IMG/VR virus record: IMGVR_UViG_3300001683_000060
Coordinates: 1 to 37,887 of that record
DNA from: a virus
Reading direction: 5' to 3' (one strand)
DNA length: 37,887 nt
The notes below the pieces were generated by a model. It was not told the origin of the DNA, made no database searches, and worked only from the letters and a program-made list of their open reading frames with translations. A program made the translations under genes and the position numbers. Shown piece by piece: positions 6,884 to 26,263 of this stretch. Every line of letters starts with the position of its first letter. Position 1 is the stretch's first letter.

Positions 6884-7066
6884 GTGAAGATAGGGATCTG
6901 GTACGAGTTCACGAAGGAAGAGAAGAAGGTGGTGAGGAAGGAACTGCGAGGGCTGAAGGCCAACACAGGTCAGGCAACCCCTGAAGAACTCATGGAGTGG
7001 GCGAAGAAGGTGATTCGAGAAGCCCTCGACACTGCTGCTGAGTATCAAAAGGAATACATACGGTGA
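6884..7066 (+). CDS. Small basic hypothetical protein, 60 aa
   Basis: Starts at GTG 6884 with AAGGGGGGCACT upstream. It is a charged, helical protein (YEFTKEEKKVVRKELRGL) ending QKEYIR. No family is recognised. Its stop TGA overlaps the GTG start of the PP-loop gene (GTGA), so the two are probably translated together. It could be an accessory to that enzyme, which is inference from coupling only. Confidence 0.5.
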   Translation: MKIGIWYEFTKEEKKVVRKELRGLKANTGQATPEELMEWAKKVIREALDTAAEYQKEYIR

Positions 7067-7857
7067 GCGACTACGACTACACCTACTTGAGTTACGGTTG
7101 CGGTGTGCAGTCCACCGCTCTGCTGGTTCTCTCTGCCCTTGAGCAGCGAGGTGTGCCGAAGGTGGACGCAGCGATCTTCGCTGACACTGGCGACGAGCCA
7201 CAATACATCTATGACTACCTGGAGATCGTGAAGCCTTGGGCAGAGGACCACGGGATCCCTCTGCATATCTGCTCTGCTGGCAAACTAAGTGCCGACTTGC
7301 TTGAGACTGACCGGACCTTTGTAGCAATCCCGGCCTGGAGACCAATGGATGATGGCCGTGAGATGCCCATGCGTAGGCAATGTACGAGGGAGTACAAGGT
7401 CACGCCAATCGAGAAGAAGGTGCGGGAACTTTTAGGCTACCAACCTCGCCAGCGAATCAAGGAGAAGGTTCGGTGCTTCTTAGGCATTAGCATGGACGAA
7501 GTTACCAGGGTCAAACCTTCACGCACTTCATGGGTGACAAACGAGTGGCCTCTCATTGACGCAAGGTTGAGAAGGCCGCAATGCGTAGACATTGTGGAAG
7601 AAGCAGGGCTACCAAAACCATCCAAAAGCAGTTGCCACTATTGCCCTTATCATTCAAATAAATACTGGGAGTGGCTAAAGAAAAATCATACTGCCGATTT
7701 CCAAAAGGCAGTGGACTTCGACATAGCAATCAGGGAGTTGCATAAGGACGACCCGATGTATGTTCACCGATCTCTAAAGCCTCTTGGTGAGGTTGACCTC
7801 ACCGACTACCAACTCTCTCTTTGGGATGAGGAATGCGAGGGCTACTGTGGGATCTAG
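7063..7857 (+). CDS. PAPS-reductase-like PP-loop protein of phage type, 264 aa
   Basis: The N-terminus has the PP-loop SYGCGVQST (residues 9-17) followed by AAIFADTGDEPQYIYDYL, the pattern of the PAPS reductase/adenine-nucleotide alpha-hydrolase group. Further cysteine motifs follow: QCTREYK, CHYCPYH and the C-terminal ECEGYCG. All of these also occur, as I recall, in phage proteins annotated as PAPS reductase/sulfotransferase. The family activates a substrate by adenylation or uses a sulfonucleotide; the phage members have no agreed role. The cysteines could hold Zn or an Fe-S cluster. The start is GTG 7063, overlapping the upstream stop. It is followed nine bases later by a cytosine methyltransferase, which suggests a role in nucleic-acid modification (inference). 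Confidence 0.8.
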   Translation: MSDYDYTYLSYGCGVQSTALLVLSALEQRGVPKVDAAIFADTGDEPQYIYDYLEIVKPWAEDHGIPLHICSAGKLSADLLETDRTFVAIPAWRPMDDGREMPMRRQCTREYKVTPIEKKVRELLGYQPRQRIKEKVRCFLGISMDEVTRVKPSRTSWVTNEWPLIDARLRRPQCVDIVEEAGLPKPSKSSCHYCPYHSNKYWEWLKKNHTADFQKAVDFDIAIRELHKDDPMYVHRSLKPLGEVDLTDYQLSLWDEECEGYCGI

Positions 7858-7865
7858 GGGGGGAA

Positions 7866-8420
7866 GTGAATGAGCTGGCACTATTCTCAGGCACTGGTGG
7901 ATGCATTCTCGGAGCGAGGCTTGCTGGTCACAAGGTCATCGCAGCGGTTGAAAACGAACCGTACTGCATCGAGGTCTTGCTTCGGAGGCAAGAGGATGGG
8001 TCGCTCGACCCCTTCCCAGTCTGGGATGACATACGATCATTTAACGGTAAACCTTGGAATGGCATCGTCGATGTTGTGTCTGCTGGATTCCCCTGCCAAC
8101 CCTATGCCCAGTGCGGCCATCAAGGAGGGGTCGAAGATGAACGGAACCTCTGGCCCGATACCTGTCGAGTCATTGGCGAAGTACGACCACGATACATCCT
8201 CTTGGAGAATGTCCCTCCCGTTGTTCAACACCTGGGAGGAGTATTGTCCGGAGACTTGGCCCGTCTCGGCTATGACTGTCGGTGGACAACTATATCCGCT
8301 CGTTCCGCAGGTGCCCCACACCTTCGGAAGCGATGGTGGTGCGTGGCCTACTCCAACAGCCAACACGAGACCGAACGAGGGGAATGTAAGATTGCTGCGA
8401 AAGCAAGTTCTCGAAGGTGA
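7866..8420 (+). CDS. C5 cytosine DNA methyltransferase, motifs I-VIII
   Basis: This frame carries the ordered motifs of C5 methyltransferases: I (LFSGTGGCILGARLAG, SAM binding), II (AVENEPY), IV with the catalytic Cys (GFPCQPYAQCG), VI (LLENVPP) and VIII (SAGAPHLRKRWWCVAYS). The C-terminal target-recognition region and motifs IX-X are missing. They appear in the overlapping +1 frame (to 8814). The start is probably GTG 7866 behind AGGGGGGGAA; ATG 7833 inside the previous gene is an alternative. Either a frameshift joins the halves or two polypeptides act together. The enzyme would methylate cytosine at C5 in phage DNA, for example to evade restriction. Confidence 0.8.
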   Translation: MNELALFSGTGGCILGARLAGHKVIAAVENEPYCIEVLLRRQEDGSLDPFPVWDDIRSFNGKPWNGIVDVVSAGFPCQPYAQCGHQGGVEDERNLWPDTCRVIGEVRPRYILLENVPPVVQHLGGVLSGDLARLGYDCRWTTISARSAGAPHLRKRWWCVAYSNSQHETERGECKIAAKASSRR

Positions 8421-8814
8421 TCTGACTGAAGCAGAAGCCACAAGTATGCTCAACGGTAAGTCTCCCTTCTCTGCTCAGGGTGTGATCCCCGCCATGCCAA
8501 CACAAAACGATTTGAATGATGCCGTAGATCTCAAGGAGGGGCCAGACAATGGTGGTCGATTGAACCCCGATTGGGTGGAATGGCTCATGGGCTGGCCTGT
8601 GGGCTGGACCTCCCTCGACCCCCTCCCTGAAGGAACGATGGAAGCGTGGGAGACAAGCGTAAAGGCTGGCACTTACTGGGACACTGATCCAGCGGACACA
8701 GGGGATGTCCCCCGGCTAACAGAGAAGAAAGAGAATCGAGCTTCACGCTTGAAGGCAATCGGCAACGGGCAAGTCCCTGCTCAAATCCTCTTGGCTTGGG
8801 AAGTGCTGGGATGA
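7870..8814 (+). CDS. Overlapping-frame protein: MSWHYS start, methyltransferase C-terminal region, 314 aa
   Basis: This ORF begins four bases after the methyltransferase GTG, in the +1 frame, using the same ribosome-binding site. It runs through the methyltransferase gene for 550 bases and then 394 bases beyond it. Beyond the overlap, LNPDWVEWLMGWPVGWTSLD and RLKAIGNGQVPAQILLAW match the C-terminal region and motif X of phage C5 methyltransferases. Inside the overlap, SLAKYDHDTSSWRM, ETWPVSAM and GAWPTPTAN resemble peptides I remember from phage proteins that begin MSW-x-x-SQALV. So both frames may be coding. It ends with ATGA overlapping the RuvC-like gene. Confidence 0.7.
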   Translation: MSWHYSQALVDAFSERGLLVTRSSQRLKTNRTASRSCFGGKRMGRSTPSQSGMTYDHLTVNLGMASSMLCLLDSPANPMPSAAIKEGSKMNGTSGPIPVESLAKYDHDTSSWRMSLPLFNTWEEYCPETWPVSAMTVGGQLYPLVPQVPHTFGSDGGAWPTPTANTRPNEGNVRLLRKQVLEGDLTEAEATSMLNGKSPFSAQGVIPAMPTQNDLNDAVDLKEGPDNGGRLNPDWVEWLMGWPVGWTSLDPLPEGTMEAWETSVKAGTYWDTDPADTGDVPRLTEKKENRASRLKAIGNGQVPAQILLAWEVLG

Positions 8815-9233
8815 ACAGAATACTGTGCTTGGATCTCGGCACCACTACCGGGTTCGCCTTCCACAGTGAAGGAGATGTAAGCCACGGGATAAAGAAGTTC
8901 CCCAAAGACCTGGGCGAAAGGCTCCATGAGTTCTATGACTGGCTGCACACCCTCAGACCTGACCAAGTGATCTATGAAAAACTGTTCAATGCACCGGGCA
9001 GGTCGGCCCTTACCCTCAATGCCATGACCGGGGTGGTGATCCTTGTAGCCACGCAACGGGGCTGGGAGATCTCCAGTGTCTCACCCATGACCATCAAGAA
9101 GGCAGTCACAGGGACAGGCAGGGCCAGCAAGAAGGACATGGTGGAGTACATCCAGAAGAGATACCCAGAGGTCACAGACCACAATGAGGCAGACGCACTA
9201 GGTATATGGCTATGGTGTTCGGAAGCCGAATGA
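8811..9233 (+). CDS. RuvC-like Holliday junction resolvase, 140 aa
   Basis: The RNase H-fold start LCLDLGTTTGFAF carries the first catalytic Asp (residue 7). YEKLFNAPG supplies the middle Glu, and the C-terminal HNEADALGIWLW supplies the final acidic residues, in the order and spacing of RuvC-like phage resolvases. Such enzymes cut branched DNA made by recombination or replication before packaging. Length is near the family minimum. ATG 8811 is preferred over ATG 8796 because it makes an ATGA overlap with the preceding stop and starts directly before the catalytic strand. The next gene overlaps by four bases. Confidence 0.8.
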   Translation: MNRILCLDLGTTTGFAFHSEGDVSHGIKKFPKDLGERLHEFYDWLHTLRPDQVIYEKLFNAPGRSALTLNAMTGVVILVATQRGWEISSVSPMTIKKAVTGTGRASKKDMVEYIQKRYPEVTDHNEADALGIWLWCSEAE

Positions 9234-10210: not shown

Positions 10211-13200
10211 CTAATCCTGCTCCACTTCGACAGTGCTGCCGGGTACAGGCTTGACGAATCCTCGTTCTTTAGCCCACTCCAGAAGGTACATGATCGGGCC
10301 AGTGGTTGCGGCACCGGGCCTGAGTGGAATGGGGAAGGGTGCCCCGTAGTCTTTCAGGTATCTTCGCCATTCTCTTTCGTTTTTTGGCGTGTCAAAGAGC
10401 AATGTCCCCAACCCAACAATTGAGTTAAGTGCCCCTGCTGCACCGGGAGCGACTTGACGACCAACTTCCCATGCCCAATCTGCGGTCTTCATAGGTCTGC
10501 CTCCAGTAGACCTGCGGTATGTCCACCAGAAACTTTCGGCCCTTCCACCCCACTTACCACCAATGCCAGTGCCCATGAGTGTGTCAAGGAAGCGGTCGCC
10601 AACAGTACGCTTTGGTCTCCGCTCCAGATCGGGGATACCTGCTTCTCTTCCCCACTCCTTGATTGAATCAAGCGCCCACCACACCAAGAAGGCTTGACCA
10701 CCTCTTTTGGCAACCATAGCAGCATTGGCGATGCCACCAGCATTGACCAAAGATTGCACTGCTCGATCCCCGTACAACTTGCTAACTGTTGATGGGAATC
10801 CCTGAAGGGTGTTCGTTACCATTTCAATAGCACGATCAATATCGGTTCTTACAGCCCCTTCATTGCCGGGAGTCCTACTCTGTTGTGCCAAGTCTTCTTT
10901 CCTTGGTCGCACAGAAGTTTCTTCAACATGAACAATGACACCATTCTCGAACTTTTCACCGAGTGTTTGGTTCCTCCACATACCAGGAGAGGCTTCCCTC
11001 AATCCTGTAGCAGAGGTTTTGTTGTGATCGAAATGGCTCCACTGCAGATAGGACGAACCTAGTTCCTGTTCTGTCATGCCCATTCTCAAAACATAATGGG
11101 ATTCGTTGGGGGTAAGGACTTCACCAAGAGCAATCTTCTCACCAATATCGAGTGCCCTAGTCGTGTGAAGTCTTGCGGCAGTACCCCTTACCACTGGTTG
11201 AGCAAAGGCAAAGAGACTTCCGTATTTCCAAACTTCTCCAGACACACCCTCAAACTTACCCAAAGCTCCTTGCCCCTTGTGGGTCTCGGGTACAGCAATG
11301 GTCCCTTCAAGAGATGCACCGCCGGGATCTCTGGTAAACTGTGCTGCGTTACTCATTATCTCTTTTTCTGCAGCCTCAACCATCTGAGTTATAGTTCTCA
11401 TCTCGTCAGGGGTAGGAGCGTCACCCCATGTCCTCTTTGCTCTGGCAATGATTGCCCTAGTAGTTGCGTCTAGTCCACGGATCAAACCTGAATCACTGTT
11501 CGCTATGGCAACAGCAATATCCATTGACGAGTTTATTGCAATGTTGGGTGCGGTCATAACACCCGAACCAAATCGGTTCATTGCCCTCAACATTGCTATT
11601 GTAGTGCTGGTTGAACTGAACTCCTGACCTATCAGGGAATCCCTGAGTGCTGCCATTCTTGAAGCAGTCAGGTTCATTTCCCTTGTGAGGTCGTCCTTAC
11701 TCTTGACCCCCCTCATGCGGTCCTTGACGCTAACCTTTTCGGGTGCCTCTTCTATCCTCTTCTCAAATGATCTTTTGATCTTCCCACCAAAGCCGACATC
11801 CAAGAAAACATACTGACCATTCCGCTCTGCTACACCAAGGGACATGGCACCAATAGCACTGTCATGTCTGACGGTAGATATTTCCGTGTTGAGTTGACTT
11901 CGGGTGACTTCTTTGCCGGGTCTTCGACCAAAGGTTTCTCGATAATCCCCGTCAGCCTTACGCTTGTCTGCTCTGGCATCTCTTCTGGCGATCCCTGCCT
12001 CTTGTATCTCCACCCTGGTTGCAGCGATCTCATCTGTAAGACTCTTCACCCTTGGGTCAATAGTGTTCGCCTCTCGACGCAAGTAGCGTTGAAGTCTCTG
12101 GCCGTCTGTGTCTCTATCAAGTTTGCTTGTGAGTCTTTCGATGCGAGATTCTAGTTCAACAATCTCATTGTGGTTGGCACTGTTCTCAGACAGCAGATCC
12201 TCTCTCTTCTTGACAGCCCCGTCAAAGTCCAGAGCGTTCTTGCCCCTGCCTAACTTGTAGCCACCCCTTCTCCCTCCAATGTGTGCTAGTGCTTCGGGTG
12301 AAGGACTGAGCGGATCTCCCCATCCATCTATCAGTTTCCGTAATGCTTTGATTTGTCTGGATGTTTCAAGGTGTACCTTGTTACTCCACTGAGCAGGTGG
12401 TCTGCCTTGATATTCAATGTCAAGTTCTCTGAGGAAGTCCAATTCTCCGGTGAGTTCTTCAAGTTTCTTCAGGTCGGAAGGGCTGAGATCAGGTGCCTTG
12501 AAATCCTCCAAGTCCTTCTGGACCTTTTCAAGTTGTTCAGCAGCACGAGTAGCAGCCTTCTCCTCAGAGGGGAGCATCTTCTCATGGTCACGAGAGGCGA
12601 ACTTGCGAAGAGATTTCTCCGGCAGGTTTTCTTCTAGGTACTTAATGTCCTTGTTCGCATCTGCCCTCTTGTAGTCAGGTGTATCCTTCCGACCACCAAC
12701 TCGCCAGCGGAGAACCCTAACCCTTGCCTCTGAAACATTGACGCTTCTTTCGGAGTATAGAATTCTCCCTTCAGCCTTGTTCTTTGCAGACTCAATCCTC
12801 TTGAGTTTCCTGTTCATTAGAGTTTCGATCTTCTTCCCGACCTTCTCGATTTCAACTCGCAGTTCTACTTCAGGTACTTGCACACCCTCGTCTATCCTGG
12901 CGGCTTGCAAGTCAAGTTTGTTTACCAGTTCAACCTGTGCGTCTTCCTTGAGACCCTTAGCCCACACTTCAATGTCTGCTATTTGCCCAGCGTTTTCGTC
13001 ATAGGCATCTTCGAGATCAATGAGTCTGTTCTCTTCACCAACAACGGTGTTGTAAGAGTCAAGGATTTCCTGATCTCTTGTGTCGAACTGATTGCGAACT
13101 TCCTCGGTAAGTTCCTGCCTGACAGTCATTCTCTCTTGGACAAGTTCCTGCCTTCTCTCTCGTAGACGCTGATGGATTGATCCTGCATCTTTTGCTGTTT

Positions 13201-15913
13201 GAGTGGCAGCTTTATGGGCATCAATGTTTTCATTGAAGTCAGCAAGGTGATCCTGTGGGTTGCCACCCTCCATCCTACTCTTCCTGAGTGCGGCAGATTG
13301 GGGTATGACTTCGTAGTTGAGATCGTCGGTGTGGGTGGGGGTGCGGGGGGTGGGTGGATCTGTTCTGTTATATCCAATGAGTTTTTCAAACGACATCGGG
13401 CCGGGTTGGCTTTCTCCACCAGCGTAGTATTTTATATTCACTGGGATATGAGTAAGCCCTGCTTCCTTTGCCGCTCTGACACGGTGGTTGCCTTCATTTA
13501 TTCTTACGGAACCATCGAATTCAACATTGAGAAACACTGGTCTTTCGGGGTCAAAACCACTTTCCTCTATGCTCTTGGTTAGTTTCTGTATATTCGCTTG
13601 GCTCCTAGAACCTCCCATTCGAAGATGCTCACCAGTCATACCCTCCAGTTTCAGTAAATCTTCTACCGGAACTAAAACCTCATCTACCCACGCCGTAGTA
13701 GACCCACCTCTTTTATACGGTGTTACTCCTCCACCCGTGACTAATGGGCTTCGCTCGACCCCTTGTATATCCCCTGCCAACCACTCACCACCGGGGTTGT
13801 CTACCCGAACACTTCTTGCCCCGGTTGCTGCGGTTAGTTGTTCTCCTGACATCTCCAACGGGTCAACATTCACCTCAGGCACCACGCCCGGAGCCTCGCC
13901 CTCCACTGGAGCAGGGCGCAGTTTCGGTAGGGTGACTGCCGTACCCTCTTCGCTAAGGGCTGCCAGTATTACTGCATTGGTGTCGGCGTTACTTCGACGA
14001 AGATTGCCACGGAAGAGGGCACTTGGATCGTCATAGAACATATCCATGACCCTGTAAGGTAAGTCTATTGTCCGTTCCTTCGCAGTGCCCGGTTCCTCGA
14101 TACCCCTGTTGCTAATCTCTGCCGTGACATGACCGTCTTCGCCAAGATGGAAACCCAACTTTGCCGCTGGTGGTTCCGCACCACGAATGATAGCACTCAG
14201 CGATTTGAATGCGGCTTCATCCGCTTTCTCTGGGCTAAAACCATTCTCTTCGTAATACTTCTTTGCTTTCTCAAGGAACGCATCTTGTCGGTCTGGCATA
14301 TCAATCAGTTCTTTGCGACGACCAACATGGGGGAAATAGTTTTCTTTGGGAGCGGCAAGACCTACTGCTTCACCCAACTCTCTATATTCACCAAAGACCT
14401 TTCGATCTATTCGGGCAGCAAATTCTCTGAGTTGCTTTTTAACATCGTCTGGAATATGACTGAACTCGTCTGCATCAAGACGAGATGCCCCCTCGTCAAG
14501 AACCTGGATCAATGCTGAGTAGTATTGCTTCGAATGAAGAGGACTGTTCTTGGCAAGGATACTTGCCTCGTCAAACAGGCTGTTGATCCGCAGTAACCTT
14601 GCGGCAGAAAGTTCAGAAACATTCTGAACAACCGCTGGGTTCTCTGCTGCACGGAAAACATACTGTGATTCGTTGGGGATACGGATTTCTTCCGTAATAT
14701 CCTCTAGCCGGGGGACTTCATCGGCCCAATCGTATCGCCTCCCCGTTGGGGGAGTATCCCTTACCTCCGTCCATATGTCCACCATGTCGGCATGACGACC
14801 AAGTTGGAAGTATGTCGCACGGACCACTGGGTCGGTGGAGTGCTGCATATCTGAAATGGGTCCACGCAACCAGTAAGTGGAAGCGTTATCTAATGCTCGT
14901 ATTTTCCTTATGAGACCACCAGCAATGACACTGTAATCCTCACCATTGTCTAGTCTTCTCTGCATTTCAGTAACTGTTTTTTGAACATTCTCTATTGACC
15001 TGGCCCTTGATATTTCTTGAGGAACTTCAGGGGAAATACTGGGGTGGTGGAGAATGTCACGCCAATATCTATCACCAAGTTTTAGAACTTCATTCGTACT
15101 ATATTTAGCAAGGGCACCACCACCTACCATTAACCCGACAAGGGCAGCAGAAGTTGCACCAGCAAAGATAATGTCATTCCGTGTCACCTTGTCGTCAAAG
15201 TAGGACTCGAACCCCATACTTGCAACGCCAGCCAAAGCACCCTGAGCCAGTATCCCAGAAACAGGTGGCACACCATTGAGGCTTTTCCTGAAGGCAACCG
15301 CTTCTTCTGCAGTGAGAGTCCCACCTCTACTCTTGAGTACCTTCTTCACTCTCCTCGCTTGTTTGAACGCTGCCGATAACTGCAAAAGTTTAGGGCCAAT
15401 GAGTATGTTTGTTGGATCGGCAAGCATATTGGCAAGAAACCAACCACTCCAACCAGCGGCCCCTTGCTCACTGATGTTTTCAAAGTCTTCCATTTCTCCG
15501 AGAACAGAACTTATTCGTCTGTTCAGATCGACCGGACCCGTGGACTCCATGATGTAGTTTCTGTTGTCTGAATTTGCTTCAAAGATCTGAACCATAGACT
15601 CCGGTGAAATAACTCCGTCACCGAACCTAGTCCCCCCGGTCCTCTTTTTTAGTTGCTCTATTGGGTTCCAGTCTTTACCTGTGTCCTGTCGGTATTGTTT
15701 AGACCAGTCCCCGCTCCACTCGTCGTAAGGAATACCCTCGTCGTTCCACCAATCCACTACTTTCCCTATGGGACTCTGACGGAAGATTGCACCAATGTTG
15801 GAACCAAACTCTTCCCAAGCAGTGCCAATAACGCTGAAATCTTCTTGTGGAATAAGAGGGGGAGCTTCGCTATTGTCAATATCTGGAATGCTATCGTTTT
15901 GATCATCCAGCAT
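10211..15913 (-). CDS. Giant internal-virion/ejection-type protein with ParB/Srx-like domain, 1900 aa
   Basis: The largest gene in the window. Its place after the connector and ejection-like proteins is that of the T7 gp16-type internal virion proteins that enter the host with the DNA. Residues 1-300 are helical with a possible membrane-active segment (AAGWSGWFLANMLADPTNIL). Residues about 740-828 hold a ParB/sulfiredoxin-like domain: VDEVLVPVEDLLKLEGM, then NIQKLTKSIEESGFD, then RINEGNHRVRAAKEAG. Residues about 900-1300 are charged coiled coil. The last 500 residues are mixed and end with GSTVEVEQD. No transglycosylase motif is seen. Start ATG 15913 overlaps the upstream stop (TAATG). Confidence 0.75.
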   Translation of the reverse strand: MLDDQNDSIPDIDNSEAPPLIPQEDFSVIGTAWEEFGSNIGAIFRQSPIGKVVDWWNDEGIPYDEWSGDWSKQYRQDTGKDWNPIEQLKKRTGGTRFGDGVISPESMVQIFEANSDNRNYIMESTGPVDLNRRISSVLGEMEDFENISEQGAAGWSGWFLANMLADPTNILIGPKLLQLSAAFKQARRVKKVLKSRGGTLTAEEAVAFRKSLNGVPPVSGILAQGALAGVASMGFESYFDDKVTRNDIIFAGATSAALVGLMVGGGALAKYSTNEVLKLGDRYWRDILHHPSISPEVPQEISRARSIENVQKTVTEMQRRLDNGEDYSVIAGGLIRKIRALDNASTYWLRGPISDMQHSTDPVVRATYFQLGRHADMVDIWTEVRDTPPTGRRYDWADEVPRLEDITEEIRIPNESQYVFRAAENPAVVQNVSELSAARLLRINSLFDEASILAKNSPLHSKQYYSALIQVLDEGASRLDADEFSHIPDDVKKQLREFAARIDRKVFGEYRELGEAVGLAAPKENYFPHVGRRKELIDMPDRQDAFLEKAKKYYEENGFSPEKADEAAFKSLSAIIRGAEPPAAKLGFHLGEDGHVTAEISNRGIEEPGTAKERTIDLPYRVMDMFYDDPSALFRGNLRRSNADTNAVILAALSEEGTAVTLPKLRPAPVEGEAPGVVPEVNVDPLEMSGEQLTAATGARSVRVDNPGGEWLAGDIQGVERSPLVTGGGVTPYKRGGSTTAWVDEVLVPVEDLLKLEGMTGEHLRMGGSRSQANIQKLTKSIEESGFDPERPVFLNVEFDGSVRINEGNHRVRAAKEAGLTHIPVNIKYYAGGESQPGPMSFEKLIGYNRTDPPTPRTPTHTDDLNYEVIPQSAALRKSRMEGGNPQDHLADFNENIDAHKAATQTAKDAGSIHQRLRERRQELVQERMTVRQELTEEVRNQFDTRDQEILDSYNTVVGEENRLIDLEDAYDENAGQIADIEVWAKGLKEDAQVELVNKLDLQAARIDEGVQVPEVELRVEIEKVGKKIETLMNRKLKRIESAKNKAEGRILYSERSVNVSEARVRVLRWRVGGRKDTPDYKRADANKDIKYLEENLPEKSLRKFASRDHEKMLPSEEKAATRAAEQLEKVQKDLEDFKAPDLSPSDLKKLEELTGELDFLRELDIEYQGRPPAQWSNKVHLETSRQIKALRKLIDGWGDPLSPSPEALAHIGGRRGGYKLGRGKNALDFDGAVKKREDLLSENSANHNEIVELESRIERLTSKLDRDTDGQRLQRYLRREANTIDPRVKSLTDEIAATRVEIQEAGIARRDARADKRKADGDYRETFGRRPGKEVTRSQLNTEISTVRHDSAIGAMSLGVAERNGQYVFLDVGFGGKIKRSFEKRIEEAPEKVSVKDRMRGVKSKDDLTREMNLTASRMAALRDSLIGQEFSSTSTTIAMLRAMNRFGSGVMTAPNIAINSSMDIAVAIANSDSGLIRGLDATTRAIIARAKRTWGDAPTPDEMRTITQMVEAAEKEIMSNAAQFTRDPGGASLEGTIAVPETHKGQGALGKFEGVSGEVWKYGSLFAFAQPVVRGTAARLHTTRALDIGEKIALGEVLTPNESHYVLRMGMTEQELGSSYLQWSHFDHNKTSATGLREASPGMWRNQTLGEKFENGVIVHVEETSVRPRKEDLAQQSRTPGNEGAVRTDIDRAIEMVTNTLQGFPSTVSKLYGDRAVQSLVNAGGIANAAMVAKRGGQAFLVWWALDSIKEWGREAGIPDLERRPKRTVGDRFLDTLMGTGIGGKWGGRAESFWWTYRRSTGGRPMKTADWAWEVGRQVAPGAAGALNSIVGLGTLLFDTPKNEREWRRYLKDYGAPFPIPLRPGAATTGPIMYLLEWAKERGFVKPVPGSTVEVEQD

Positions 15914-22972: not shown

Positions 22973-25900
22973 CTATTTTGTCCTCTGTCGTAAGGTTGAA
23001 AGCTGCCTGAACGCTTTGTATCCCAAATGCTCCGGGTTTATCACGGCGTACTGGCAAAACACTTCAGCCGGAGTAGCCGCAAAAGTAACCCCTGTTATCC
23101 CATAGGAACCTGTTGCACTTACAGGAGTCCCCACCACTAATACCGCATACGAACCTGTTGCGGTAGTCACTCCAGATACGGTTACAGAGTAAGAACCAGT
23201 GGCCGTAACAGTCCCGGAAGTGGTCGAAGATACATCATAGGAACCAGTTGCGGTAACTGGAGACCCAGTAGATATGACCGCATAAGAACCCGTTGCCGAA
23301 GCAGTGCCCGTCGATGTCACCGCATAGGAACCCGTAGAGGTTACAGGGGTGCCTGTTGACGAAATGCTGTAAGCACCAGTGGCCGTGACTGCCGTTCCTG
23401 TGCTTGTAACAGCGTATGATCCCGTTGCCGAAGCAGTGCCAGAAGCACTCGAAGACACTTCATAACTGCCTGTTGCCGTGACACCCGCAACGGCGGGAAT
23501 CTCCCATTGGCTCATCCTTATTGTTCTATTAGCCTTGGGCAGGGTACCAGACGGGATGTTAAAGTTCGTGGTAATCTTTGACGAGTTGGTGGGACGGTTC
23601 CTTGGTAAGTCATAAGAGACATAAGCCGAAGCAAGAACTTGGTCATCAGCATCCGTGGTAGAACTGCCCTGTAGTGCCTCATCGTAAAGGTCGATATAAT
23701 AACCATCACTAAAGTGCGAGGTTTGGTATGTTTGCTTGCCGGGAGTTGGGTAACCACTATAAATCCGATTGTACCCAGCAATGAATAACGCTAGGTTGTT
23801 TTGACTTGACCATTGGTTTGTGCTATCGCCCATATTATAGGAGGTAATCGAAGTGCCTAATGAAACCGATCTATCTGAAAAGGCATCCACTAGAGACCAG
23901 TTTTTAGTTGACCCTGTGAGAGCGGGGACAACATTCCTGATCCTTAGTAGAACTCCACCTATTATATTTCCAGTAGCGGAGGTACTGGTGGTGTCTTCAC
24001 CCGCATCCCTTTGAAACTCCGCCTTGAACTCGTAGTCCGTTGGCTCGCCGGAAGCCGCAACGGTCCTAACACCCATCCAGGAGACAGTCCCTTGCCATAT
24101 CCCGGCTCCAGGGGACAAAACATCATGGGAAACATACTGACCGCCCGCCGTCACATCGACATATGCATCGAAGCCAGAGTGGGTGTATACGGCATCGTAA
24201 GTTGGGGATGGCGTTGTGGCTTCCATCGTGCCACCAACACCACCAATAATCATAACAAGTTGATCGCCCGGAGACAGACTTACAGTTGGAGTAAATGTAA
24301 TAGATGAATCATTGGTCTGATCGACACTTCCGACAGCAGTCATGGAGACCGAGGCAACTACTTCAACTGTTGGTGCTGGTACTCCCGTTGAGGTAACTGC
24401 ATAACTTCCTGTAGCCGAAACAGAACCACCAGCTGTCGAATCAACTGCGTAGGAACCCGTTGCCGTGGCGGTCGCTGAACTGGTGACTGAATAACTACCC
24501 GTGGCTGTTACCGGAGAGCCAGCCACCTGGACCGCATAAGAGCCTGTCGAAGTTACCGCCGTACCCGTGGAGGTAACGGCATAACTACCCGTTGAAGTAG
24601 TCGGAGACCCGGCAGTAAGGACGGCATAACTGCCTGTCGAGGTGATCGCCGTCCCCGTCGATGTCACTGCATAAGAACCAGTTGAAGTTACCGGAGAACC
24701 CGTGAGCAGGATCGCATAAGCACCAGTGGCGGTTACTGCTGTCCCCGCTGCGATAACTGCATAACTGCCTGTGGCTGAAGCGGAACCACCAGTTGTCGAA
24801 TCAACATCGTAGGAACCTGTGGCTGTAACTGCTGTCCCTGTAGAGGTGACGGCATAGGAACCTGTGGCTGTGGACACCGTGCCAGCCGCAGTAACGGCGT
24901 AAGACCCGGTTGCTGTTGTCACCGTTCCTGTCGAGGTAACGGCGTAAGATCCTGTGGAGGTCGCTACTGTTCCTGTTGAAGTAACTGCATAAGCACCCGT
25001 AGCGGTTGTGGCTGTTCCCGCAGAAGTGACTGCGTAAGATCCTGTGGCAGTAGCAATCGTTCCCGCAGACACAACAGCGTATGAACCTGTAGCCGAAACA
25101 GAACTGCTAGTCGTTGAGTCAACATCGTAACTACCTGTGGCTGTAACTGCTGTTCCAGTAGATGTCACCGCATACGAGCCAGTAGCAGTAACAGGAGTTC
25201 CCGTAAAGGTAACTGCGTATGAGCCTGTTGCGGTTGCCACTGTCCCTGTGGAGAGAACAGCGTATGAACCTGTGGCTGTAACAGCCAACCCGGTAGTGGA
25301 TACCGCATACGCACCTGTGGCTGTTGCTACCGTTCCCGTTGAGGTGACTGCGTAACTACCCGTTGCGGTGACAGCCCCCGTGGAAGTAACGGCATAGTCA
25401 CCCGTGGCAGTCGTCGGGGTTCCAGTGGAGGTTACTGCATAGGAGCCAGTGGCCGTGACCGGAGTTCCGGCAGTCTTGACGGCATACGATCCCGTGGCTG
25501 TTGAAGCAGTGCCCGTGGAAGTGACGGCATACGAGCCTGTGGCAGTGACGGGGGTTCCTGCGGTGGTGCCACCCGCATCCTCCCGAAGACCAACCTGTAT
25601 CGAACTCCACCGACGATTACCCGTTGCGGAACACGCAACACCCGTGACAAGGGAAGTTCCAGCCACCTGCACATAGTGCATAAGCCCCAAGGCACCATCC
25701 CCCCCGGTGCCAGAGAGTTGCCCGCCGAAAGCGAACCCAGTGGGGGCTGGACTGGAAAATGTCGAGTTCCTTGCATACGCCACCCACCCGAACTGAGCCA
25801 CATTGCTCGTTCCGGCAACGCTAGTTGGGTTTGTCCAGGTTATATTCCCGCTAGAGTTGGTACCTGCCCAGCCCGTTCCCTCGGCCCCGATAGTTACCGT

Positions 25901-26263
25901 GCCTCCCGATACACGGGAGATATGCATCTTGTTCCCCTGGCCCGACCAGCCAGAGCCTGTACTCACGGTCGTTCGGCTATTGCTCACATCGAGAGCGGTG
26001 ACTGTGTGGTAGTAGACAGACAACCGTGCGTCAGTCCCAGCACTGGGTTCGTAACCAATGAGGGTGAAGGCGACGCTCGATATCGGTGTCGCTGTGTTTT
26101 GTAGTTCAGGTTGGTCGGTACTATTGCTGGATGGGATACCGTTGGACTTCCTGCCCCCTGCACAGGCAACAAAAATAATGTCCCCAGCAGAGAGAGTTAT
26201 AAGGTTGGAAGTCGATGAGTTGCTGGCTGAAACAACCAGAGTGGTTTCCAGTACAACTGCCAT
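22973..26263 (-). CDS. Large repeat adhesin/fibre with about 35 copies of a 15-residue repeat, 1096 aa
   Basis: Residues 1-240 form a beta-rich globular domain (LSAGDIIFVACAGGRK, then SSIQVGLRED). Residues about 241-628 hold some 26 tandem units of about 15 residues, consensus ATGSYAVTSTGTAVT, with a recurring variant SYDVDSTT every seven or eight units. Residues about 630-925 form a second globular domain that resembles the first (LSPGDQLVMIIGGVGG, then TIRMSQWEIPAV). About nine further repeats follow near the C-terminus. A long, repetitive beta fibre bearing two copies of a lectin-like domain fits a host-binding adhesin. ATG overlaps the upstream TGA (TGATG). The repeats are in frame and imperfect, so copy-number change is possible. 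Confidence 0.7.
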   Translation of the reverse strand: MAVVLETTLVVSASNSSTSNLITLSAGDIIFVACAGGRKSNGIPSSNSTDQPELQNTATPISSVAFTLIGYEPSAGTDARLSVYYHTVTALDVSNSRTTVSTGSGWSGQGNKMHISRVSGGTVTIGAEGTGWAGTNSSGNITWTNPTSVAGTSNVAQFGWVAYARNSTFSSPAPTGFAFGGQLSGTGGDGALGLMHYVQVAGTSLVTGVACSATGNRRWSSIQVGLREDAGGTTAGTPVTATGSYAVTSTGTASTATGSYAVKTAGTPVTATGSYAVTSTGTPTTATGDYAVTSTGAVTATGSYAVTSTGTVATATGAYAVSTTGLAVTATGSYAVLSTGTVATATGSYAVTFTGTPVTATGSYAVTSTGTAVTATGSYDVDSTTSSSVSATGSYAVVSAGTIATATGSYAVTSAGTATTATGAYAVTSTGTVATSTGSYAVTSTGTVTTATGSYAVTAAGTVSTATGSYAVTSTGTAVTATGSYDVDSTTGGSASATGSYAVIAAGTAVTATGAYAILLTGSPVTSTGSYAVTSTGTAITSTGSYAVLTAGSPTTSTGSYAVTSTGTAVTSTGSYAVQVAGSPVTATGSYSVTSSATATATGSYAVDSTAGGSVSATGSYAVTSTGVPAPTVEVVASVSMTAVGSVDQTNDSSITFTPTVSLSPGDQLVMIIGGVGGTMEATTPSPTYDAVYTHSGFDAYVDVTAGGQYVSHDVLSPGAGIWQGTVSWMGVRTVAASGEPTDYEFKAEFQRDAGEDTTSTSATGNIIGGVLLRIRNVVPALTGSTKNWSLVDAFSDRSVSLGTSITSYNMGDSTNQWSSQNNLALFIAGYNRIYSGYPTPGKQTYQTSHFSDGYYIDLYDEALQGSSTTDADDQVLASAYVSYDLPRNRPTNSSKITTNFNIPSGTLPKANRTIRMSQWEIPAVAGVTATGSYEVSSSASGTASATGSYAVTSTGTAVTATGAYSISSTGTPVTSTGSYAVTSTGTASATGSYAVISTGSPVTATGSYDVSSTTSGTVTATGSYSVTVSGVTTATGSYAVLVVGTPVSATGSYGITGVTFAATPAEVFCQYAVINPEHLGYKAFRQLSTLRQRTK
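23085..23490 (-). repeat. In-frame tandem repeats, C-terminal block of the adhesin
   Basis: About nine degenerate 45-base units encode ATGSYAVTSTGT-type repeats. Boundaries are approximate, judged from the translated sequence. The units vary in codon use, so this is an old array rather than a recent expansion. Confidence 0.7.
24368..25545 (-). repeat. In-frame tandem repeats, central block of the adhesin
   Basis: About 26 degenerate 45-base units (a few 42 or 48) encode ATGSYAVTSTGT-type repeats. A variant unit encoding SYDVDSTT recurs about every seven units, giving a higher-order period. Boundaries are approximate. Confidence 0.75.

Follow-up and report, generated by a model that had tools for sequence, protein, structure and literature searches.

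C5-cytosine DNA methyltransferases that are divided between two polypeptides are known, among them M.EcoHK31I and M.AquI (PMC3404938). In M.EcoHK31I (YGGCCR) the alpha chain carries motifs I-VIII and X and the beta chain carries motif IX; in M.AquI (CYCGRG) alpha carries motifs I-VIII and beta carries motifs IX-X (PMC3404938). For the ShiLan element, an HNH endonuclease was described that lies concealed in a different frame of a phage methylase (PMC11855218). The phage protein families PHROG 363 and PHROG 1008, both named 'DNA methyltransferase', are listed as separate families, and a relation between them as two frames of one DNA is unrecorded. The beta of M.EcoHK31I reportedly lies in another frame within alpha, as Lee is said to have found in 1995. 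The usual role of phage C5 methyltransferases is protection against host restriction.

We have analyzed a locus in the virus record IMGVR_UViG_3300001683_000060 from IMG/VR, the whole of which (37,887 nucleotides) is referred to here as the window. At this locus one C5-cytosine methyltransferase appears to be encoded as two polypeptides, alpha and beta, in overlapping frames with one ribosome-binding site and two starts, a reading to which we give a probability of about 0.85. Compared by described motifs, the division is the same as in M.AquI; overprinting of the whole alpha gene is not described for that enzyme in PMC3404938, whereas the pair in the window overlaps over the full alpha. M.EcoHK31I, also compared by described motifs, is similar in having two polypeptides with motif IX in beta and not in alpha. 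It differs in that its motif X is in alpha and that of the window is in beta (most relatives of the window resemble M.EcoHK31I in this respect), in that its TRD is placed in alpha, and in that beta of the window begins 4 nt past the alpha start and overprints all of alpha. Alpha of the window belongs to PHROG 363 and beta to PHROG 1008. The ShiLan element resembles the window in that a phage methylase gene contains a second protein in a different frame, but it is a mobile insertion with an unrelated product, whereas the second frame of the window crosses the enzyme core and would complete it. Two annotated pairs of 'DNA methylase' genes, gp91/gp90 of mycobacteriophage CloudWang3 (locus L160) and 34/35 of Streptomyces phage Sebastisaurus, also have motifs I-VIII followed by motifs IX-X in the +1 frame; however, they overlap by 179 and 32 nt only and have no MSW start. 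A search of the open-access literature found no report of the present phage arrangement. New features are the overprinting of the whole alpha by beta and at least 3 frame changes of motif X.

The window is read as coming from a tailed phage, judged by its terminase-, portal- and tail-like ORFs. The alpha gene (7866..8420, + strand, frame 0) has 184 codons from GTG 7866 to TGA 8418-8420, or 195 if the possible in-frame ATG at 7833 is used. As the original prediction had stated, the ordered methyltransferase motifs FSGTGG, GFPCQP, LLENV and GAPHLRKRWW are found in its translation, representing motifs I (FxGxGG), IV (PCQ), VI (ENV) and VIII in this order, and no methyltransferase motif follows motif VIII. 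The match to PF00145 (E=5e-33) covers profile positions 4-168 of 324 only, that to phrog_363 has an E-value of 3e-51, and that to M.HhaI (1e-11) extends over M.HhaI residues 16-174. On these matches alpha is predicted to be the SAM-binding catalytic domain of a C5-cytosine DNA methyltransferase, with motifs I-VIII and a corresponding predicted activity.

The beta gene (7870..8814, + strand, frame +1, ATG start) encodes 314 aa beginning with MSWHYS and matches phrog_1008 with an E-value of 5.6e-28. It overprints the whole of alpha and then extends 394 nt past its end, so that the +1 frame is open not just through the methyltransferase half, as had been noticed, but from 7870 to 8814. Upstream of the pair is a phosphoadenosine-phosphosulfate-reductase-like (PAPS-reductase-like) gene (7063..7857, + strand; phrog_424, E=1.3e-35), and downstream is a RuvC-like resolvase gene (8811..9233, + strand; PF02075, 2.6e-11), the start of which overlaps the beta stop (ATGA). 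Elsewhere in the window, a 1096-aa ORF (22973-26263, - strand) contains dozens of degenerate repeats of the ATGSYAVTSTGTxV type, and a 1900-aa ORF (10211-15913, - strand) has a ParB-like stretch in mid-protein, recognized by eye (NIQKLTKSIEESGFDPERPVFLNVEFDGSVRINEGNHRVRAAKEAG).

The two starts lie close together. The beta ATG at 7870 lies four bases past the alpha GTG at 7866, behind the same AGGGGGGGAA, just as the original prediction described it, and a putative ribosome-binding site, AGGGGGGG (7856..7863, + strand), which was read from the sequence and has a Shine-Dalgarno (SD) core as its counterpart in relatives, would serve both. Among 207 loci, 140 have their first usable +1 ATG exactly 4 nt past the alpha start, and the start words in these are mostly NTGAATG or TTAAATG. 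Of these 140 loci, 107 have an SD core upstream, mostly with 3-5 nt between it and the alpha start, which puts it 7-9 nt ahead of the beta ATG; of random 20-mers, 17% contain one. From this geometry we infer that one ribosome-binding site serves two starts. In 22 loci (TTAAATG context, for example, L003 and L008) the codon at the alpha start position is TTA and the beta ATG is kept; TTA is not a start, and alpha must therefore begin upstream there.

The last third of beta contains the equivalent of motif IX, RLNPDWVEWLMGWPVGWT (8557..8610, + strand), and motif X, RLKAIGNGQVP with the core GNGQVP (8746..8778, + strand). Motif IX, which is missing from alpha, is carried by beta as WVEWLMGWPVGW and was recognized from the sequence, from relatives and from homology to the single-chain enzyme L241; motif X, recognized from sequence and relatives, is in the beta frame here and in the alpha frame in most relatives. 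Motifs IX and X thus both follow downstream in beta, with numbering based on their order and on homology to L241. This enzyme, from mycobacteriophage Batiatus, is a single chain that has motifs I-VIII, LPTP repeats, PRLTAAFPEWMMGWPAGW and GNGVCPQQ in one frame, and both phrog_363 and phrog_1008 score on it. Its N-terminus matches alpha of the window (E 1e-22), and its C-terminus matches the beta profile from beta residue 158 on (hhalign, 97.4% probability, E=1.6e-11). Since the N-terminal part of L241 resembles alpha and the C-terminal part beta, residues 158-314 of beta (8341..8811, + strand) are, by homology, the C-terminal half of the methyltransferase. The +1 protein, which had been proposed as one member of a conserved overprinted gene pair, does belong to such a pair, but it would be the other part of the same methyltransferase and not an unrelated gene.

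Residues 1-157 of beta (7870..8340, + strand) are the overprinted N-terminal part; they have no counterpart in the single-chain enzyme and exist only as an overprint. They are probably an interface or stabilizing extension created by overprinting. Searches with Pfam and NCBIfam models did not recognize beta, and a PDB sequence search with beta as query gave nothing meaningful. AlphaFold2 gave low confidence to beta in the N-terminal part and in most of the C-terminal part, and in the model of the natural fusion L037, which as a whole matches M.HhaI over about 175 alignment columns only, the beta part was left unresolved. The missing single-chain counterpart and the low-confidence prediction of residues 1-157 would fit a different reading, in which beta consists of its C-terminal part only, begun at an internal start, and the open N-terminal +1 frame is incidental. 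In relatives that include mycobacteriophage and Paenibacillus loci (L006, L007, L009, L012 and L067) stops also occur close to the beginning of the +1 frame, and in these beta must start internally. In loci of the MSW type, however, the N-terminal frame is free of stops, the ATG and its spacing are fixed, and the +1 residues over the region of motifs I-VIII are conserved beyond the null expectation described below, and we regard the internal start as improbable in comparison with a full-length beta.

The relatives show how the two genes are distributed. Separate tblastn searches with alpha and beta found the same phage loci, offset by four bases; 65 IMG/VR loci were retrieved via alpha and 80 via beta, and both sets are alike in layout. 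In most of these loci beta begins with MSW..S.ALV four bases past alpha and both frames continue together. Alpha in most relatives is full length with motif X at its end, and beta stops a short way past motif IX. The window and its nearest kin (L013, L015-L017 and L081) have an alpha that stops past motif VIII and a beta that carries motifs IX and X. A total of 121 viral and 76 bacterial loci combine motif IV in frame 0 with motif IX in frame +1, and in all 197 the beta frame passes through the motif IV region without a stop; the bacterial set was retrieved by the beta profile and is therefore selected for beta and unselected for alpha. One locus (L150:2997-3317) has a single stop at alpha codon 108 with beta intact, either from decay of this copy or from an error of sequencing. 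A single frame is annotated in most records, namely alpha in ABMM1, Mel-JY01, S9-5 and the E. coli records H167-H170, and beta in phPA-G and Vibrio phage 1.236.O; in Paenibacillus phage Bloom both frames are annotated.

An objection to dual coding is that chance or the composition of frame 0 accounts for the openness of the +1 frame. We compared +1 stops with a null obtained by synonymous shuffling of the alpha codons, in which the protein and the codon usage are unchanged. For the window alone the result is modest (0 stops versus 3.4 expected, P=0.005), an open antisense frame exists as well, and the +1 peptides are in part reflections of conserved frame-0 motifs. The original prediction had relied on family-like peptides; homologues annotated on their own do exist (phrog_1008), but MSW..SQALV and KYD.DTSSW are partly forced by the frame-0 motifs opposite them and are for this reason weak evidence, insufficient alone. 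Across relatives, however, the picture is clear. In 44 dereplicated loci, mostly retrieved with the alpha query, 22 +1 stops were seen versus 200 expected, and all 22 are confined to 9 loci without the MSW start; in the same loci +2 stops numbered 569 versus 510 expected. Bacterial and prophage loci had 34 +1 stops versus 193 expected. In ordinary enzymes there is no such depletion: in a control set of 29 C5 methyltransferase ORFs, taken from genomes that belong to the phylum of the window, the +1 stops seen equaled those expected along the gene. Other genes of the same loci have 3.9 +1 stops per 100 codons.

Conservation was treated in the same way. In MSW loci the +1 amino-acid similarity exceeds that of shuffles with alpha held fixed by 0.46-0.64 BLOSUM units per site (z 15-38), versus 0.03-0.08 (z at most 2.5) in 23 control enzymes of like divergence; these z values are descriptive, as related sequences are not independent, and our case rests on the difference from the controls. 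This comparison omits controls L328 and L345, which have long +1 runs too. The single-chain methyltransferases of Firmicutes phages (L162-L240) were considered as a negative control and rejected because they have a conserved +1 ORF of their own; genome-derived PF00145 enzymes replaced them. Individual codons tell the same story. After dereplication at 80% identity, 98% of the loci use GCC for alpha Ala132 and 92% use GGG for Gly135, where local codon usage would give 29% and 21%, and the wobble bases of these two codons encode the Pro and Gly of TWP.WG in beta; Asn2 is AAT in 100%, another wobble base fixed where beta needs it. We relied on these named positions only, as a general statistic of wobble excess is inflated by shared ancestry. 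For alpha the dN/dS-like count (OLGenie-like rates) is 0.24; within the overlap beta has 0.64 (0.57-0.70), and phantom frames have 0.79 (0.64-1.10), an interval that overlaps that of beta. The difference lies in the expected direction, but such substitution rates are only suggestive of moderate constraint on beta in the overlap and weak alone.

The second frame is thus depleted of stops beyond chance and conserved beyond what the first frame forces, and we consider it confirmed, at the level of sequence comparison, that both frames are kept by selection and that this is true dual coding, a case that has largely escaped notice. An origin of the open +1 frame in chance or composition is judged refuted. 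Independent homologues of the +1 frame, which had been set beforehand as a test, are present (phrog_1008); stops in this frame are absent from MSW-type relatives, and synonymous variation in frame 0 is not free. Together with the fixed start spacing, these results bear out the claim of a conserved overprinted pair. The antisense ORF at 8037-8453 (- strand) is open, as had been cautioned, but its length is within chance, being reached by 27% of shuffles, and only 10 of 85 relatives have this phase open; it was rejected as coding.

The division of the motifs in the window could also be explained by a programmed frameshift that joins frame 0 to frame +1 and yields a single fusion protein with all of motifs I-X, the openness of the +1 frame before the shift being a by-product. 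In the clade of the window, where alpha ends past motif VIII and motifs IX and X are in beta, a +1 shift would give a complete enzyme, and natural one-frame fusions do occur (L037, L045 and L241 of Batiatus). In most relatives, however, both frames run in parallel with their own stops. Inspection of 17 loci with a short alpha revealed no conserved shift site at the change-over of frames; there is no common sequence at the alpha stops, and the codons differ. A frameshift would also leave unexplained the conserved beta ATG and the stop-free, conserved +1 frame upstream of any shift. We consider such a frameshift unlikely, and two separately started chains remain the preferred reading.

Under two-chain coding the motifs appear to have moved between frames. 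Of the 107 loci in the alpha tree, 79 have motif X in alpha and 18 have it in beta; its frame has changed at least 3 times by well-supported branches of the tree of the alpha N-terminal region, and 8 times if the tree is taken at face value. Because both frames are open, a single indel can shift a motif between the chains, and such indels may have moved motifs from one chain to the other. In L037:3001-3813 and L045:3001-3810, which are 96% alike, motif IX is fused to alpha in its frame, the +2 frame holds motif X, and beta is shortened to 195 aa.

The Firmicutes-phage single-chain enzymes (L159, L162-L240; for example, L162:1652-2074) have motifs I-X complete in frame 0. Over motifs III-VIII they have a +1 ORF of about 140-190 codons, with about 7 +1 stops seen versus about 170 expected in columns 40-180. 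This ORF terminates in SLSDILEEQVDEKYFLS, forms a family of its own (phrog_16143) and has a weak match to phrog_1008; M.HhaI has a segment similar to it in frame. It looks like a second overprinted family. A broader proposal, to which we give even odds, is that an entire branch of C5 methyltransferases relies on two-frame coding: the N-terminal part of beta would be functional and have arisen over the catalytic motifs, small indels would pass motifs IX and X between frames or re-fuse them, and a second branch, that of the Firmicutes phages (phrog_16143), would have a +1 protein of this kind within a complete single-chain enzyme.

The enzyme may then work as follows. One mRNA would encode both chains, with a single ribosome-binding site and two start codons 4 nt apart (GTG for alpha and ATG for beta), and the choice of start would set the subunit ratio. 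Alpha, from frame 0, would supply the SAM-binding catalytic domain with motifs I-VIII, and beta, from frame +1, the small-domain half with motif IX and, in the window phage and its nearest relatives, also motif X. The two halves would pair as in M.EcoHK31I and M.AquI, and by this analogy the product is most likely a heterodimer. The paired enzyme would methylate a specific cytosine site and, we assume, most likely protect the phage DNA from host restriction. Translation of both frames, pairing, activity, target site and biological role are all deduced here from the DNA.

Among double-stranded DNA phages, it is unusual for the core of an enzyme to be overprinted at length on the same strand. 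The arrangement recurs in about 200 inspected loci, from phages and from bacterial genomes of many phyla, which makes a comparative study possible. Half of the enzyme is commonly lost in public annotation: a single frame is named in most of the inspected phage records and in those that we found for E. coli. The locus is well suited to testing how two starts 4 nt apart share one ribosome-binding site, and equally how a catalytic motif can pass between reading frames.
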